From positions 868,001-932,000 of the forward strand of contig NZ_CP134499.1 in NCBI RefSeq assembly GCF_031764535.1: a DNA stretch of 64,000 bases, read 5' to 3'. Shown in pieces: positions 2,842 to 25,131 of the stretch. The notes below the pieces were generated by a model, which worked only from the letters and a program-made list of their open reading frames with translations, had not been told where the DNA came from and did not search any database. A program made the position numbers and the translations under genes. Numbering within the stretch: the first letter of the stretch is position 1; every line of letters begins with the position of its first letter. This stretch comes from Pseudomonas sp. SG20056 (GTDB lineage Bacteria; Pseudomonadota; Gammaproteobacteria; Pseudomonadales; Pseudomonadaceae).

Positions 2842-5229
2842 TTATTCGTGGTCCTTGGGCTTCCAGGTTTTCAGCAGCAGAGCATTGCTCACCACGCTGA
2901 CGCTGCTTAGCGCCATGGCCGCCCCAGCGAGCATCGGATTGAGCAGGCCGGCGGCCGCCAACGGAATGCCGACCAGGTTATAGGCGAAGGCCCAGAACAG
3001 GTTCTGGCGGATCTTGTTGTAGGTGCGTCGGCTGATATCCAGGGCGTCGGCCACCAGGCGCGGGTCGCCGCGCATCAGGGTGATGCCGGCGGCGTGCATG
3101 GCCACATCGGTGCCGCTGCCCATGGCGATGCCGACATCGGCAGCGGCCAGCGCGGGCGCGTCGTTGATGCCGTCGCCGACCATGGCCACCACCGCGTGTT
3201 TTTTCAGCTCGCTGATGATCGCCGCCTTGTCCGCCGGCAGCACCTCAGCATGCGCGGCGCTGATGCCCAGGGTCTCAGCCACCGCCTTGACGCTGCCGGG
3301 GTTGTCGCCGCTGATCAGGTGGCTGGCAATGCCTTGAGCGGTCAGCGCGGCGATGGCATCGGCTGCACCTGGCTTGAGCGTGTCACCAAAGGCAAACAGG
3401 CCGAGCACCTGCGGTTGCGGCGCCAATTCCAGCAGCCAGGACAGGGTGCGGCCTTCGGCCTCCCAGGCCAGGGCGTCGGCGGCCAGTTCATCGTGGTGCA
3501 GGAAGTGTTCTTCCAGCAGGCGCAGGTTGCCCAGGGCTAATTGCCGCTCGCCGATCTGCCCGGTGATACCGCGGCCGGCCAGTGCTTTGCTGTTGCTGAC
3601 TTCTGCGAGGCTCAGCTGCTGCTCCGTGCTCTGATCCAATACCGCCTTGGCCAGCGGATGTTCGCTGCCACGCTGCAGGGCGCCGGCCAGTTGCAGCAGC
3701 TGAGTTGTGTCGCCATCGACCGCGCGCAGATGGGCGATACGCGGGCTGCCTGCGGTCAGGGTGCCGGTCTTGTCGAAGGCCACCAGGGTTACTGAGTGGG
3801 CGATTTCCAGGGCTTCGGCGTCCTTGATCAGAATACCGTGGCGCGCCGCCACGCCGGTGCCGGCCATGATCGCCGTGGGCGTGGCCAGGCCAAGGGCGCA
3901 AGGGCAGGCGATGACCAGCACGGCCACGGCATTGAGCAGTGCGGTTTCGATACCCGCGCCAAGCAGCAGCCAGCCGAGCAGGGTAGCCAGGGCGATCAGC
4001 AGCACGCTGGGCACGAAGACCTGGCTGACTTTATCCACCAGCTTCTGGATCGGCGCTTTCGCGGCCTGGGCATCTTCGACCAGGCGAATAATCCGCGACA
4101 GCACGGTTTCCGCGCCCAGAGCTGTGGTTTCCACCAGCAGGCGGCCTTCGCCGTTGATGGCTCCGGCCGTGACGCGATCACCCGGCTGTTTGGGTTGTGG
4201 CAGGCTTTCGCCGCTGATCAGCGCTTCATCGGTGTGGCTCTGGCCTTCGCGAACCAGGCCGTCGACCGGGAAACGCTCGCCGGGCTTGACCACAATGCAG
4301 TCGCCCAGCTGCAGCTCAGCCAGCGCCACCCATTGCTCGACGCCATCCTGCAGGCGCATGGCGCGTTCCGGACGCAGCGCCTGCAGAGCGCGGATGGCGC
4401 TGCTGGTCTGGCGTTTGGCGCGGCTTTCCAGGTATTTGCCGAGCAGGATCAGCGTGATGATCACTGCCGAGGCTTCGAAGTACAGGTGCGGCATGCTGTT
4501 GGCCGGACTTACCGCCCACTGATACAGGCTCAGGCCGTAGGCGGCGCTGGTGCCGATGGCCACCAGCTGGTCCATATTCCCGGCACGGGCGCGCAGGGCA
4601 CTCCAGGCCGCGCGGTAGAAGCGCGCGCCGAAGATAAATTGCACCGGCGTGGCCAGGGCGAACTGCAGCCAGGCCGGCAGCATCCAGTGCAGACCGAAGG
4701 GTTCGACGAGCATCGGGATGACCAGCGGTACGGTCAGCACAATCGCCAGCAGCAGCGACCAGCGCTCGCGTTGCAGATGCCGGTCAGCTGTTGGTTGGGC
4801 CTGGGATGCATCGTCTCGCAGGCTGGCGCGGTAGCCGGCCTGGCTGACGGCACGTAGCAACACCTGATGATCAGTGCCGCGCAGCACCTGCAGCTGCGCC
4901 CGTTCGCTGGCCAGGTTGACACTGACCGAGAGCACCCCAGGTTGCTGCGCCAGGGCGCGCTCGATACGCCCGGCACAGCTGGCGCAGGTCATGCCAGAAA
5001 GCGCCAGCTCCAGGCGTTCGCTAGGTACCTCATAACCGGCTGCGCTAACGGCATTGACCAGTTGCTCCAGGCTGTCTGCGGGCGCTTCGACACGCGCCTG
5101 TTCACTGGCCAGGTTGATGCTGACGCTGGCGACATCGGTCACCTTGACCAACGCGCGCTCGACCCGCCCAGCGCAGCTGGTGCAGGTCATACCGCTGATG
5201 GGCAGGTTGAAGGTGGTGAGGCTGGACAT
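2842..5229 (-). CDS. copA: Cu(I)-exporting P1B-type ATPase CopA
   Basis: A 795-residue inner-membrane ATPase that pumps Cu(I) from cytoplasm to periplasm. In order it shows two HMA domains with CxxC motifs (Cys16/19 in GMTCTSC and Cys82/85 in GMTCASC), membrane helices from about residue 158, the actuator loop ISGES (about 339-343), the transport motif CPC (442-444), the phosphorylated Asp in DKTGT (486-490) and the hinge [10 protein letters not shown]. The start at 5229 is preferred over a frame extension of nine codons because GGAGGA lies 6 nt upstream. It heads the copA-cueR operon and is preceded by a CueR box; copZ, on the other side, supplies the matching chaperone. Confidence 0.96.
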
Positions 5230-5260
5230 GGGTGGTCCTCCATTGAGCTCCAGCACAGGA

Positions 5261-5294: not shown

Positions 5295-5446
5295 TTTATG
5301 GCGTTGCCATCCATGGCCGCCACCCTGCGGGCCGTCGCTGCGCGACGTTAAAAATCGCTCCCGGCGATTTTTTATGGCTTTGCCATCCATGGCCACTACC
5401 CTGCGGGCCGTTACTGCGCGACGTTAACAATCGCGCCCGACGATTT
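5295..5446 (+). repeat. Two tandem 76-bp copies of a structured repeat
   Basis: Units 5295-5370 and 5371-5446 each consist of a 12-nt direct repeat (TTTATGGCGTTG / TTTATGGCTTTG) and a 64-nt core beginning CCATCCATGG; a partial third direct repeat follows at 5447. Each core can form a weak hairpin around CCCTGCGGG, a hairpin around GCTGCGC (clean in the first unit, GTCGC/GCGAC) and a terminator-like hairpin (AAAATCGC with GCGATTTT) followed by a T-run on the plus strand. The two units differ at many loop positions. They separate the copA and copZ promoters. A third copy lies inside a gene at 20077-20151. Confidence 0.85.
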
Positions 5447-5453
5447 TTTATCC

Positions 5454-5482
5454 CTTGACCTTATCCTTATGGCAAGGCCAAG
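5454..5482 (+). promoter_or_regulatory. CueR-type promoter/operator for copZ
   Basis: TTGACC at 5455-5460 is followed by a 19-bp spacer and an AAGACT -10-like hexamer. The spacer holds an imperfect version of the CueR dyad (ACCTTATCC with TGGCAAGGC). It lies about 50 nt before the copZ start and immediately after the tandem repeat units. The dyad is weaker than at copA, so regulation is inferred from layout and neighbours. Confidence 0.7.
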
Positions 5483-5532
5483 ACTGCATCTATCCGTTTA
5501 CCATGGCGGCTTATTTATTCAGGAGGTTGTTT

Positions 5533-5745
5533 ATGCAGGTTTCTCAGGTTCACGCATTCCGTGTCGATGGCATGACTTGCCAGGGATGCGTCAAAACCAT
5601 CAGCGAGGCGCTGTTGGCTTGCGACCCGGCGGCTGATGTGAAAGTGAAGTTTCCCGGTGGTGAAGTGCGCGTGAGCAGCAGTGTGCCGGTCGATCAGCTG
5701 ATGGTCGCCATCGTCGAGCAAGGCTACGGCGTCAGCCTGGCGTAA
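5533..5745 (+). CDS. copZ: Copper chaperone CopZ (HMA domain)
   Basis: A 70-residue single heavy-metal-associated domain with the Cu(I)-binding motif GMTCQGC (Cys near residues 16 and 19). Such proteins bind cytoplasmic Cu(I) and hand it to CopA or CueR. The ATG at 5533 is supported by AGGAGG seven nt upstream; the frame runs further upstream but without domain sequence. It is transcribed divergently from copA under its own CueR-like promoter. Its 3' end overlaps the end of the convergent tetR gene by 14 nt. Confidence 0.92.
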   Translation: MQVSQVHAFRVDGMTCQGCVKTISEALLACDPAADVKVKFPGGEVRVSSSVPVDQLMVAIVEQGYGVSLA

Positions 5746-17317: not shown

Positions 17318-19363
17318 ATGCGTCAGATATCCGTATTCAGCCTGCTGGCTGTCAGCATCAGCCTGGCCAGTTCCGCCTATGCCGAGCATCTCAAACTAGA
17401 AGACAGCACAGTGGTCGGCCAGCAGCATGGGGATGCCACTGCGCCGAGCATTGCCGAGAAGCGCGCCGAGTTTGCGCGGATTCCCGGTGGTGCCAGTGTC
17501 GTCGATGGCGAAACCTACAAGACCGGCCGCGCCAGCTCGCCGCAGGATGCTTTGGGCCAGGCCACGGGGGTGTATATCCAGTCGCGCTCCGGCGCCGAGG
17601 AATCGCGCCTGTCGATCCGTGGCTCGGGCCTGCAGCGCACCTTCCATCAGCGCGGTATTCTGCTGATGCAGGACGGCGCACCGCTGAACCTGGCGGATGG
17701 CAGTGGTGACTTCCAGAGCATCGAACCGATTGCCCTGGACCATATCGAGGTCATGCGCGGCGCCAACGCCTGGCGCTACGGCGCCGCCAACCTGGGCGGG
17801 GCGATCAACTTCGTCACGCCCACCGGCAAGACCGCGCCCAAGGTGCAGCTGCGCGCCGAAGCGGGCAGCTTTGATTACCAGCGCATCTTCGGTGCGGTGG
17901 CCGAAGACTTTGGTGATTGGGATGCCTACCTGAGCTTCTCCGATTACTCCCAGGATGGTTTCCGCGATCACGCGCGCCAGGAGAACCAGCGCTACTTCGC
18001 CAATATCGGCGGGCGGATCAACGAGCGGCTGTCGACACGCTTCTATATCAGCCACGTGGAAACCGATTCGGAAATCCCCGGCAGCCTGACCAAGGCGCAG
18101 CTGCGGCGTAACCCCGAGCAGGCCGCGCTGAGCACGGTGACCGGCGATAACAAGCGTGACTTCACCCTCAACCGCATCGGCAATATCACCACCCTGCAAC
18201 TGGACGGCGGGCACAGCCTGGAGCTGTCGAGCTTCTACAGCGAGAAATCGCTGTGGCACCCGATTTTCCAGGTGCTGGAAGTCGACAGTGAAGATGTCGG
18301 CGTACGCCTGACCCACAAATGGCAGAGCACGGATGGCTGGCGCTGGAGCGGTGGCGTGGAAGCGCTGCAAGGCCGTAACCAGGCAGAAAACTACGTTAAC
18401 GTGCGCGGTAAACGCGGCAACCTAGTGGACCGTCAGGTGCAGACGGCGCGCAGCCTGAATGCCTTTACCGAGCTGGAAGTGCCGCTGGCCGAGGACTGGG
18501 CGCTGATCGGCGGCCTGACCTGGCTGCACAGCGAGCGCGATATCGATGACAAGCTGAAAAGCAGCTTCAACTTCGTCGGGGTGCCGACGGGTTTCCAAGA
18601 TGCGTCATTCAACCGTAGCTACAGTGCCCGGATTGGCCGGATCGGCCTGCGTCATGACCTGGCCGACGGTGTGCAGCTGTTCACCAACCTCAGCCAAAGT
18701 TACGAGCCGCCGACCTTTAGCGAGCTGACCGGGGGCGCCATCGTCACCGAGAACGAGGCGCAGAAGGCCAACACCCTGGAAGCCGGTATGCGCTTCACCC
18801 AGGGCAATCTGGACCTGGACCTGGCGGTTTACCGCAGCGAAATTCGCGACGAGCTGCTGGGTTACGTCAACCCGCTGGCCCCGACCCAGGTGATCACCAC
18901 CAACGCCGACCGCACCGTGCACCAGGGCATCGAGTTCGGTGGTGCCTGGCAGCTGGGTGAGGTGGTGTTGCGCGGTCAGTACCTGCTCAATGACTTCCGC
19001 TTCGACAACGACCCGGCCTACGGCAACAACCGCATTGCCGGCGTGCCGAGCCAGTTCCTCAAGGGTGAGGCGCTGTGGCAGCGCAATGGCTGGTATGCCG
19101 GCCCAACCGTCGAGTGGGTGCCGGTGCACTACGCCGCCGACCACGCCGAGTCGCTGTATGCCGAAGCCTATGCAATCTGGGGCCTGAAGGGCGGTTATCG
19201 TCCACGTGAAGGTCTGGGCTTCTTCGTCGAAGGGCGCAACCTCTCGGACAAGACCTACATCTCCACCACGGGCGTTGTGGCCAATGCCCGTGGCCAGGAT
19301 GCCGCGCTGTTTATGCCCGGTGACGGTCGCAGCTTGTATGTCGGCCTGGAGTGGAAGCTTTGA
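17318..19363 (+). CDS. TonB-dependent outer-membrane receptor (metal-chelate type)
   Basis: A 681-residue TonB-dependent receptor with a signal peptide (MRQISVFSLLAVSISLASSAYA), a plug domain (IPGGASVVDGETY, LSIRGSGLQRTFHQRGILLMQDG, IEVMRGANAWRYGAANLGGAINF) and a 22-strand-type barrel ending in LYVGLEWKL with no terminal aromatic. ATG 17318 starts the signal peptide; an in-frame TTG four codons earlier is less likely. The PepSY membrane gene overlaps its end and is surely cotranslated. Substrate: the neighbouring PCu(A)C, DUF2946 and OprC genes point to a copper chelate, but ferric-siderophore receptors have the same fold and also pair with PepSY proteins, so this is inference. Confidence 0.88.
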   Translation: MRQISVFSLLAVSISLASSAYAEHLKLEDSTVVGQQHGDATAPSIAEKRAEFARIPGGASVVDGETYKTGRASSPQDALGQATGVYIQSRSGAEESRLSIRGSGLQRTFHQRGILLMQDGAPLNLADGSGDFQSIEPIALDHIEVMRGANAWRYGAANLGGAINFVTPTGKTAPKVQLRAEAGSFDYQRIFGAVAEDFGDWDAYLSFSDYSQDGFRDHARQENQRYFANIGGRINERLSTRFYISHVETDSEIPGSLTKAQLRRNPEQAALSTVTGDNKRDFTLNRIGNITTLQLDGGHSLELSSFYSEKSLWHPIFQVLEVDSEDVGVRLTHKWQSTDGWRWSGGVEALQGRNQAENYVNVRGKRGNLVDRQVQTARSLNAFTELEVPLAEDWALIGGLTWLHSERDIDDKLKSSFNFVGVPTGFQDASFNRSYSARIGRIGLRHDLADGVQLFTNLSQSYEPPTFSELTGGAIVTENEAQKANTLEAGMRFTQGNLDLDLAVYRSEIRDELLGYVNPLAPTQVITTNADRTVHQGIEFGGAWQLGEVVLRGQYLLNDFRFDNDPAYGNNRIAGVPSQFLKGEALWQRNGWYAGPTVEWVPVHYAADHAESLYAEAYAIWGLKGGYRPREGLGFFVEGRNLSDKTYISTTGVVANARGQDAALFMPGDGRSLYVGLEWKL

Positions 19364-20877
19364 CGGCGGCTCTGCAAGCACAAGAGCTGCCGCGCCTGAC
19401 CTGGCGCCAGCGCCTGCTGCGGTTGATGCCGTGGCACAAGCGCCTGGCGCTGCTGGCCTGCCTGGGCATCTTCAGCTGGGCGGGCAGCGGCATGCTGCAC
19501 CCGCTGATGGGCTTCCTGCAGCCGCGTCCGCAAACCATGGCCACACCACAACAGGTGTTGCCGCTGGATAACCTGCGCAGTCCCGCGCAGGTGCTCGGTG
19601 CGGCGGGTGTTGCCCAGGTGCAGGGCTTGCGCCTGCTGGTGCTGGCCGCTGAGCCGTATTACCAGGCGCGTCTGGCTGGCGAACTGCAGCCACGTTACTG
19701 GCATGCACGCAGTGGTCAGGCAGTCGAGCTGGCCGGCGCTCATGCCGAAAGCCTGGCGCGGCACTACCTGGGCAGTGACGAGCCGCTGGCCTACGCCGGC
19801 AGCATCGAGCGCTTTACCAGCGAATACGCCTTTATCAACCGCCTGCTGCCGGTGGCGCGGGTCGATACCCAGCGTGATAACCAGTTGCGCCTGTATGTCG
19901 ACCTGTTTCATGACCGCCTCGGCACCCTGGTGGATCAGCGCAAGGCTTGGTTCAGCGCGTTCTTCCAGACGATGCACAGCTTTCGCTGGCTGGATGCGGC
20001 GGGCCCGTTGCGGCCGGTGCTGATGCTGGTACTGCTGGCCTCGATTGTCTCGGCGACGCTGTTTGGTGTGGCGCTGTTTATCGCCCGCCATCCATGGCGG
20101 CGACCCTGCGGGTCGTCGCTGAGCGACGTTAAAAATGGCTCCCGGCCATTTTTTATCGCCCGTCGGCGTGCCCGGACCTTCAACCGGCGGCTGCATGGCT
20201 GGTGGGGGCTCGGGCTGGCCTTGGCGACCCTGAGTTTTGCCAGCAGCGGTGCCTGGCACCTGTTGCATAAGCAGAGCGCACAGCCCTGGCCAGCGCCGTT
20301 TGTGCCGAGTTTTAACGTGGCCGAGTTGGATATGGCACCGGCGGCCAACTGGCTGCTGGCCGGTGAAGAGCTGTACATGCTCAGCCTGCTTGAACTCGAC
20401 GGCAAGCCGATCTGGCGCGCCCAGGGGCAGCAGTTCGCCAGCATGCCCAGCCTGCACTACCTGGATGCTCAGGGCCGTGAGCTGGGCAATGACACGCCGC
20501 GCCGTTATGCCCAGCAGCGCCTCGATCATTACGCCAAGTCCCTGGGCCTGGGTGAGGCACAGGCGCTTACGCTGCAGCACAGCTTCGACCACGAATACGG
20601 CTTCGTCTTCAAACGCCTGCCGGTGTTCAAGGCCAGCTATGCCGATGCGCACAACACCGCGCTGTTTATTGATCCGCTGGACGGTGCTCTGGCCAGCCGC
20701 GTGCAGGATGCTGACCGCACGGAAGGCTGGACCTTCGCCTACCTGCACAAGTGGGAGTTTCTCGCAGGTCTGGGCAATGGCTACAAGCACCTGATTCTGG
20801 GCCTGTTGGCTCTGGCTCATGTGCTGCTGGCGCTGGTGGGATTGAGCTTGATAGGTAAATCCCGTGCGTCATATTGA
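19351..20877 (+). CDS. PepSY-associated transmembrane protein, interrupted in frame by a 25-residue repeat-derived insert
   Basis: About 508 residues with four hydrophobic membrane segments (near 28-50, 222-245, 285-305 and 475-500) and two periplasmic PepSY-like regions, as in PepSY_TM proteins that accompany TonB receptors. Relatives are thought to reduce metal chelates after import. GTG 19351 overlaps the receptor end; TTG 19360 is an alternative start. Residues 243-267 come from a 75-bp repeat unit whose relatives lie between copA and copZ; removing it leaves LFIARRRARTF, a seamless join. The insert (HPWRRPCGSSLSDVKNGSRP) adds basic residues right after a membrane helix. The rest of the frame is intact. 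Confidence 0.85.
   Translation: MEALTAALQAQELPRLTWRQRLLRLMPWHKRLALLACLGIFSWAGSGMLHPLMGFLQPRPQTMATPQQVLPLDNLRSPAQVLGAAGVAQVQGLRLLVLAAEPYYQARLAGELQPRYWHARSGQAVELAGAHAESLARHYLGSDEPLAYAGSIERFTSEYAFINRLLPVARVDTQRDNQLRLYVDLFHDRLGTLVDQRKAWFSAFFQTMHSFRWLDAAGPLRPVLMLVLLASIVSATLFGVALFIARHPWRRPCGSSLSDVKNGSRPFFIARRRARTFNRRLHGWWGLGLALATLSFASSGAWHLLHKQSAQPWPAPFVPSFNVAELDMAPAANWLLAGEELYMLSLLELDGKPIWRAQGQQFASMPSLHYLDAQGRELGNDTPRRYAQQRLDHYAKSLGLGEAQALTLQHSFDHEYGFVFKRLPVFKASYADAHNTALFIDPLDGALASRVQDADRTEGWTFAYLHKWEFLAGLGNGYKHLILGLLALAHVLLALVGLSLIGKSRASY
20077..20151 (+). repeat. Structured repeat unit (64-bp core) inserted in frame in the PepSY gene
   Basis: The 64-nt core (20088-20151) is flanked by perfect 11-nt direct repeats TTTATCGCCCG (20077-20087 and 20152-20162), so one unit adds exactly 75 bp or 25 codons. 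The core begins CCATCCATGG like the units at 5295-5446. Its three hairpins are CGACCC/GGGTCG, GTCGC/GCGAC and AAAAATGGC/GCCATTTTT. The last stem has TGGC/GCCA where the other copies have TCGC/GCGA or ATCG/CGAT, a compensatory change that keeps pairing. Confidence 0.88.
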
Positions 20878-24086: not shown

Positions 24087-24097
24087 TGTGTCCAGTT

Positions 24098-24150
24098 GTG
24101 GGAGGGGCTTTAGCCGCGAGCTTTTGAGTCGCGGCTAAAGCCCCTCCCAC
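24098..24150. repeat. Inverted REP pair
   Basis: Two 22-nt arms (24098-24119 and 24129-24150) of the GTGGGAGGGGCTTTAGCCGC type face each other across 9 nt. The same arm appears in four more pairs in this window. It lies 11 nt after the oprC stop, where such hairpins can protect the 3' end of the transcript. Confidence 0.9.
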
Positions 24151-24252
24151 ATCCGCGTGATGAATTTGTGCAGGCTAATACAGCCTTAAGGTTAAAGCGC
24201 GAAAGTAGTCCCCGCAGACACACAACTTCCCCTGCATTACGAGGACTTCACC

Positions 24253-25062: not shown

Positions 25063-25123
25063 GTCGCGGCTAAAGCCCCTCCCACGGTACGCGCGCTGAT
25101 GTGGGAGGCGCTTTAGCGGCGAC
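25063..25123. repeat. Inverted REP pair (one diverged arm)
   Basis: Arms at 25063-25085 and 25101-25123 belong to the same REP family as the pair after oprC. The second arm has changes (GAGGCGC and GCGGCGAC). It lies between convergent cytochrome b561 and adenine deaminase genes and may serve as a shared 3' boundary. Confidence 0.85.
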
Positions 25124-25131
25124 TTTCAGCC

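Follow-up and report, generated by a model that had tools for sequence, protein, structure and literature searches.

How a gene for a membrane protein can come to carry a structured repeat and still be read through it is the question raised by a locus of Pseudomonas sp. SG20056, which was analysed within a stretch of 64,000 nucleotides (the window). The host gene (19351..20877, plus strand) encodes a PepSY_TM membrane protein (Pfam PF03929, E 1.1e-7) of 508 aa as read from GTG. It retains at 20077..20079 (plus strand) the TTT of the target site, single in the empty sites of two other genomes (G348, G279), and this is followed by an inserted structured unit of 75 nt (ATCGCCCG...GGCCATTTTTT; 20080..20154, plus strand). 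The open reading frame list shows the frame to stay open from 19351 to 20877, through the whole unit, so that exactly 25 codons are added, as a reading made from the sequence alone (hereafter the sequence-only reading) had maintained. That reading had divided the insert into a 64-nt core and a target duplication; the comparisons given below point instead to a 75-nt unit that includes its own left end and a terminal T6. The stretch is one copy of a dispersed structured repeat that shares homology with rrB of E. coli, and it likely moved non-autonomously to the 3' side of the PepSY TTT, adding the 25 codons. The insert is predicted to form the stretch between two helices of the PepSY_TM protein, as in an AlphaFold run on 17 sequences (mean pLDDT 76; five models, 61-76) residues 246-275 were unstructured, with pLDDT below 50, between helices 218-245 and 277-309. 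A plasmid collection searched for the PepSY gene gave no match.

The insert is a feature of few proteins by all comparisons with relatives. Protein searches yielded 88 homologues, scored among 7997 candidates sharing most words, and 87 of them span the site (P0079 does not). Alignment of orthologues, which had been proposed as a check, found the 25 residues absent from 86 of these 87; the exception (P0001), a protein of 501 aa from another strain that is 91% identical, has the insert at the corresponding position, followed by a stretch two residues shorter. A motif match in P0035 was discarded as a coincidence elsewhere in that protein. At the DNA level the site is empty in eight of nine orthologous loci, the ninth stretch (G414) ending short of it; CTGTTTATCGCCCGTCGG occurs once at the empty site in G348 and G279, and a diverged, uninterrupted form is found in G208, G099, G390, G324, G309 and G399. 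The idea that the stretch is native coding sequence, resembling the repeats between the copA-type and copZ-type genes by chance, draws on the kept frame and on nothing else; it is contradicted by the absence of the insert from nearly all spanning homologues and by 34 matches in the genome, is refuted by the empty sites, and has a negligible probability.

As had been claimed, the core recurs twice between copA and copZ. The two tandem copies occupy 5298-5449 on the plus strand (5298..5373, found by pattern and blastn matches; 5374..5449, by blastn matches) and are flanked by a copper-type P-ATPase gene (copA-type; 2842-5256, minus strand) and an HMA-domain gene (copZ-type; 5455-5745, plus strand). 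A 29-nt pattern matched the window twice and gave no match in any of 100 shuffles. In the strain's own genome (labelled G000) blastn returned 43 matches at E<=1 and 34 at E<=1e-4, the PepSY copy included and some of them partial. The family extends well beyond this strain: a model built from 26 own-genome copies (R1) matches at least 60 of 398 genus genomes, own included, at E<=0.001, with at most 11 candidates per genome scored under strict filters. A pattern scan of GTDB contigs, which yielded 90 stretches, has among its named carriers P. peli, P. sediminis, P. guineae, P. anguilliseptica, P. benzenivorans, Stutzerimonas kirkiae and Brenneria alni. The last of these (G419) gives 35 blastn matches at E<=0.01 when searched with its own copy; several H1 stem types occur among them with pairing kept (L277), and copies adjoin a PhoQ gene (L327) and an MreC gene (L315), as assigned by Pfam. 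Comparison of 23 own copies with G279 found nine shared, one present as a shortened remnant (L009), nine sites empty and four ambiguous (L004, L007, L013, L023).

Copies in tandem are found at many loci (e.g. L295, L240, L097), where they give rise to long open frames (MACHPWRPPFGPSLRDVKNGSRPFF...) that annotation could take for proteins; 11 of 139 copies are followed immediately on the right by another. Pfam searches with ten long ORFs running through copies gave no match within the element, six having no match at all and four (L327, L052, L043, L315) having matches outside it. The window also contains inverted repeats with TGTGGGAGGGGCTTTAGCCGCGA at 24097-24157 and 25064-25124, which presumably resemble common Pseudomonas REP elements.

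The copies lie in one orientation directly 3' of a T-run, which is often that of an intrinsic terminator. Among 139 unique copies, 70 are preceded by a detected hairpin with its T-run, seven by another copy, 58 by a T-run lacking a detected hairpin, and four have no T3; by eye, several of the 58 follow hairpins missed by the script, and 77 of 139 is therefore a lower count. For background, a hairpin precedes 61 of the 1045 T-runs that the window contains. On the left the T-run is 2 to 8 long, the right one is six long in 99 of the 139 copies, and the two lengths are hardly correlated (r = 0.12). The left T-run is accordingly taken to be that of the host and the right T6 that of the unit. Unit length is similarly uniform, being 75 nt in 78 of 147 units and 74-76 nt in 128.

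Eleven empty sites give net insertions of 71-76 nt, nine of them 74-76: 75 nt at L001, L007, L017, L019 and L021, 76 at L011 and L020, 74 at L012 and L024, 73 at L016 and 71 at L008, where a few host bases were lost. They were drawn from eight genomes for L001, from G324 for L007, from five loci each for L008 and L012, from G279 for L011, L017, L019, L020, L021 and L024, and from G208 for L016 and again L020. The clearest is L020, at which two genomes have GGGGCTTTTTTGTTTCTG and the own genome has an additional 76 nt between T6 and GTTTCTG. At L007, L008, L012, L017 and L020 the unit opens with a base other than the one that follows the T-run in the host, and there is therefore no duplication beyond T at these sites. 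At the other six (L001, L011, L016, L019, L021, L024) unit and right flank start alike, which produces a direct repeat and leaves the junction ambiguous.

The exact 11-nt direct repeats, TTTATCGCCCG, which had been taken to bound the PepSY insert, are indeed present in two identical copies (20077..20087 and 20152..20162, both plus strand, with host coding sequence from 20155 on), but they are atypical of the family. No bases are repeated beyond the T-run in 64 of 122 copies, and 1-8 nt match in the remaining 58; the PepSY repeat thus belongs to a minority, and comparison with the other empty sites led to the rejection of an early view in which 11-nt repeats were an ordinary target duplication. 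The left end equals the right flank over at least 6 nt in 17 of 122 copies, against a shuffled mean of 4.4 and maximum of 9, the shuffle tests treating related copies as independent and so overstating certainty. These matches are unexplained by plain insertion that makes no duplication.

The repeat unit, of the form ATNGCC...T6, consists of four hairpins (H1-H4). When 24 sequences of three genera are aligned, pairing holds in 89.3% of cells, and 45 cells are doubly changed against 14.7 when shuffled, with none of 500 shuffles as high; the signal is lost when the partners are slid. Helix 1 pairs in just 72% of cells of the same 24 sequences, in which further pair types show no excess (27 against 25.6 shuffled; 168 of 500 shuffles). 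The ATNGCC left end pairs with an internal arm, and four of its six positions pair in excess among 139 copies, the two outermost not doing so; some left ends may thus have been rewritten after insertion. The earlier observation of compensated stem changes is accordingly borne out, but RNA cannot be singled out as the selected form: over 115 cores there are 20 G.T and 25 A.C mismatches, and as the two are about equal, they lend no support to selection on the sense RNA. At one further locus (L035, own genome at about 2030972-2030996, minus strand), the left hairpin lies within a long palindrome copying the host flank (TTTATGGGCCGCCA...TGGCGGCCCATAAA), which looks as if it arose by fold-back synthesis.

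The PepSY gene is not the only coding sequence to have been lengthened in this way. DNA comparison of loci identified a second in-frame insertion of 25 codons in a gene for a ShlB/FhaC/HecB-type transporter (Pfam PF03865; L007 1504-1578 in the own genome, also L143 and L059), which is present in G000, G130 and G014 and absent in G324. It adds LWPAIPGGHPAGHRCATLKMASGHF near the N-terminus, ahead of a hydrophobic stretch, and is read in a different frame of the unit from the PepSY insert. Frame 0 of the sense strand is open in 122 of 147 units and frame 1 in 108, compared with about half of mononucleotide shuffles. A further copy (L012; G000:C1:2727512-2727594) is found at the extreme 3' end of a protein gene that runs along the opposite strand, where it supplies a new TAG after PGKKK. 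With two carriers for PepSY and three for the ShlB type, numbers are too small to demonstrate that the extra residues are selected for. The comparison with Rickettsia palindromic elements (RPE) that had been drawn holds in so far as palindromic repeats are located in frame within protein genes in both, according to passages of PMC3733652; the Pseudomonas unit differs from what is described there in its 75 nt, four hairpins and T6 end.

With regard to identity, the sequence-only reading knew of no description of this repeat, a statement that has to be revised. Two class-wide relatives scored 40.6 bits (L383) and 35.1 bits (L377) on the Rfam family RtT (RF00391), below its gathering score of 45, and these near-matches led to a comparison with E. 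coli. Model R1, which contains own-genome copies only, matches the rrnB T1-T2 spacer of MG1655 with 69.7 bits (E 1.6e-18) and a site downstream of a 5S gene in ATCC 8739 with 65.7 bits, and reaches just 16.7 bits on the MG1655 tyrT locus. The Pseudomonas repeat is, on sequence comparison, homologous to the H1-H4 hairpin core of E. coli rrB. In the portions of PMC8144298 drawn on here, the rrnB T1-T2 spacer is the sRNA rrB, a member of the tRNA-linked repeats (TLRs), a family with no known function first described in 1978; these repeats sit in tRNA or rRNA operons and contain 18-19 bp that repeat the RNA 3' end exactly, and rrA, rrB and rrF are the repeat between T1 and T2 of rrnA, rrnB and rrnD. 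Relative to that account, the Pseudomonas copies share with E. coli rrB the four hairpins, the left end TTTATGGC, similar loops and a place downstream of a terminator. They differ from TLRs as portrayed in the same portions in that most are located away from tRNA genes, after terminators or inside protein genes, end in T6, are polymorphic between species, and have the opposite orientation relative to the upstream terminator. In E. coli, rrB points the opposite way from the 5S gene and terminator upstream of it, so that one rule of insertion may not cover the family as a whole.

A tRNA lies within 200 nt at only 3 of 29 own-genome loci, and the PepSY copy is within a protein gene, where it has the 11-nt target repeat in place of the 18-19 bp of RNA 3' identity; a copy after tRNA-Asp (L005) repeats, by eye, the terminator tail and not the tRNA end. 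In the class-wide set, a tRNA or tmRNA is present within 200 nt at 15 of 29 loci. A second model (R2), for which copies from Pseudomonas, Stutzerimonas and Brenneria were combined, finds matches in 125 of 369 class genomes, own included, at E<=1e-4, its E-values being rough. Of the 29 class loci listed from other genomes, 25 are complete and share this type of H2-H3-H4 core, which a few, such as L389 and L400, have in shortened or altered form; their T-run is mostly interrupted by GT, often followed by GAAC, and T6 occurs in L397 and L401. Rfam gave no match at gathering score, RtT included, in window 1-30000, and up to E 1 in window 20000-20250 no RtT and just a 12-nt sR32 match (E 0.35). Unlike RttR/RtT of the E. 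coli tyrT operon, the window copy thus has neither an RtT match nor a repeat of a tRNA 3' end.

Other known repeat families resemble the unit in part, as far as the relevant passages of PMC3733652 describe them. Like GTAG and CGTC REPs it is dispersed, structured and mainly downstream of genes, and RPE-4 and RPE-6 are there grouped with CGTC-type REPs; these are palindromes of 20-40 bp with an unpaired tag, and identity with either REP type was rejected for a 75-nt unit with four hairpins and no terminal tag. Like MITEs, set out in that source as 70-300 bp, the unit is non-autonomous and foldable, and it differs in lacking terminal inverted repeats of 15-30 bp and, apparently, a target duplication of constant length; its consensus has just a 6-nt ATGGCC/GGCCAT, broken (by eye) in L001 and L008. 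The literature searched contained no description of the repeat in Pseudomonas, nor of dispersed, T-run-inserting, protein-lengthening behaviour.

Any mechanism has to accommodate a repeat family with four covarying hairpins, empty sites, near-constant unit length, T-run placement in one orientation, a kept frame and homology to the rrnB spacer. In the scenario that we favour, a trans-acting enzyme would paste a unit ending in T6 after T-runs, the moving form being perhaps single-stranded, hairpin-bearing or circular. Terminators would be favoured as suppliers of T-runs, and a target match to the left end of the unit, TTTATNGCC, would help and would leave the direct repeat seen in PepSY. The protein would tolerate the insert because its 75 nt divide evenly by three, keep the frame open and fall in an interhelix loop able to accept it. 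Searches for RVT_1 and Y1 found no autonomous partner. The main rival requires no dedicated enzyme and invokes template switching or recombination at replication forks, for which the T-run and TTTATNGCC would provide short stretches of homology on either side. It would account for left ends that match the right flank beyond shuffles and covary with the internal arm, for the L035 left hairpin (at about 2030972) extended into a long palindrome of host flank, and for the 11 of 139 copies that directly adjoin another on the right. However, the first base after the T-run is already unlike the host at the five unambiguous sites (L007, L008, L012, L017, L020), and the T6 end, together with the 74-76 nt that 128 of 147 units measure, looks like the mark of defined ends. 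It is on account of these defined ends that the enzyme is ranked above recombination, which we consider rather unlikely.

A small derivative of an IS200/IS605-type (Y1) transposon, mobilised in trans, would also insert 3' of T, make no duplication and have hairpins near both ends, so the geometry fits, and 12 of the 15 genomes searched contain Y1 genes. Nevertheless, no copy of the element was found within at most 1.5 kb on each side at the 30 examined of 59 Y1 matches, and no Y1 match was found in Brenneria alni (G419; 35 blastn element matches, genome completeness not stated) or in G421 and G339, seemingly one incomplete MAG. The sole match in the own genome has just 46 bits (G000:C1:385456-385785), with no element copies in the surrounding 3.3 kb, and this gene could be of the REP-associated type. 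A Y1 origin is accordingly improbable. Least credible among the mobile scenarios is retroposition, in which an RNA with its own U-tract would be reverse transcribed onto a nicked T-run; it is suggested by the terminator-like hairpin and T6 at the end of the unit and by T-runs as targets. An early model of this kind was dropped on the T-run lengths, the left one not being repeated at the right, and on the lack of any RVT_1 (PF00078) match in six carriers (G000, G279, G144, G130, G014, G419), the other 9 of the 15 genomes searched having one or more; as the mismatches also show no RNA-type bias, retroposition appears very unlikely.

The constancy of the loops of the unit may reflect binding by a protein. 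On the opposite strand H1 forms a stem capped by an ANGGAT hexaloop (sense ATCCNT, N variable) in 116 of 133 cores, counted as cores of 63 nt with score >=30, and the PepSY copy carries this sequence as ATCCAT in the sense direction. TCC is found in the H1 loop of 124, the H4 loop of 125 and both loops of 117 of the 133 cores; the TCC/GGA bases of both loops are 96-98% constant, and the adjacent loop base is variable. The opposite strand thus bears the ANGGAX motif on a stem that is named in a passage of PMC4005645 as the high-affinity motif of RsmE, and CsrA is reported in PMC8144298 to bind E. coli RrB in vitro, deletion having just modest effects. By analogy with RrB, RNA of the opposite strand is predicted to present GGA hexaloops to RsmA/CsrA-type proteins, and such predicted binding may be what keeps the loops constant. 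Read from the right, H4 would also terminate, and H1 would then be reached by read-through only.

The repeat family itself is already known as rrB/TLR, and what appears new is its dispersed, T-run-inserting and protein-lengthening behaviour. It is possible, although doubtful at present, that these repeats are class-wide mobile RNA-like modules with CsrA/RsmA hexaloops that insert at the 3' ends of transcription units, namely terminator T-runs here and tRNA, tmRNA and 5S ends elsewhere; E. coli rrB and other TLRs, carried in rrnB T1-T2 vector fragments, might then be resident copies, and in Pseudomonas the modules would also be written into proteins as exactly 25 codons. The polymorphic empty sites in Pseudomonas offer a testable answer to what TLRs are, namely mobile elements or the descendants of one. 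As the rrnB dual terminator is among the most used plasmid terminator sequences (a section of PMC8144298), the nature of the rrnB repeat matters in practice. The 75-nt unit with its open frames provides a clear bacterial case, outside Rickettsia, of a structured repeat lengthening proteins, and a well-known stretch of bacterial DNA that had lacked an explanation now looks mobile and able to lengthen proteins.
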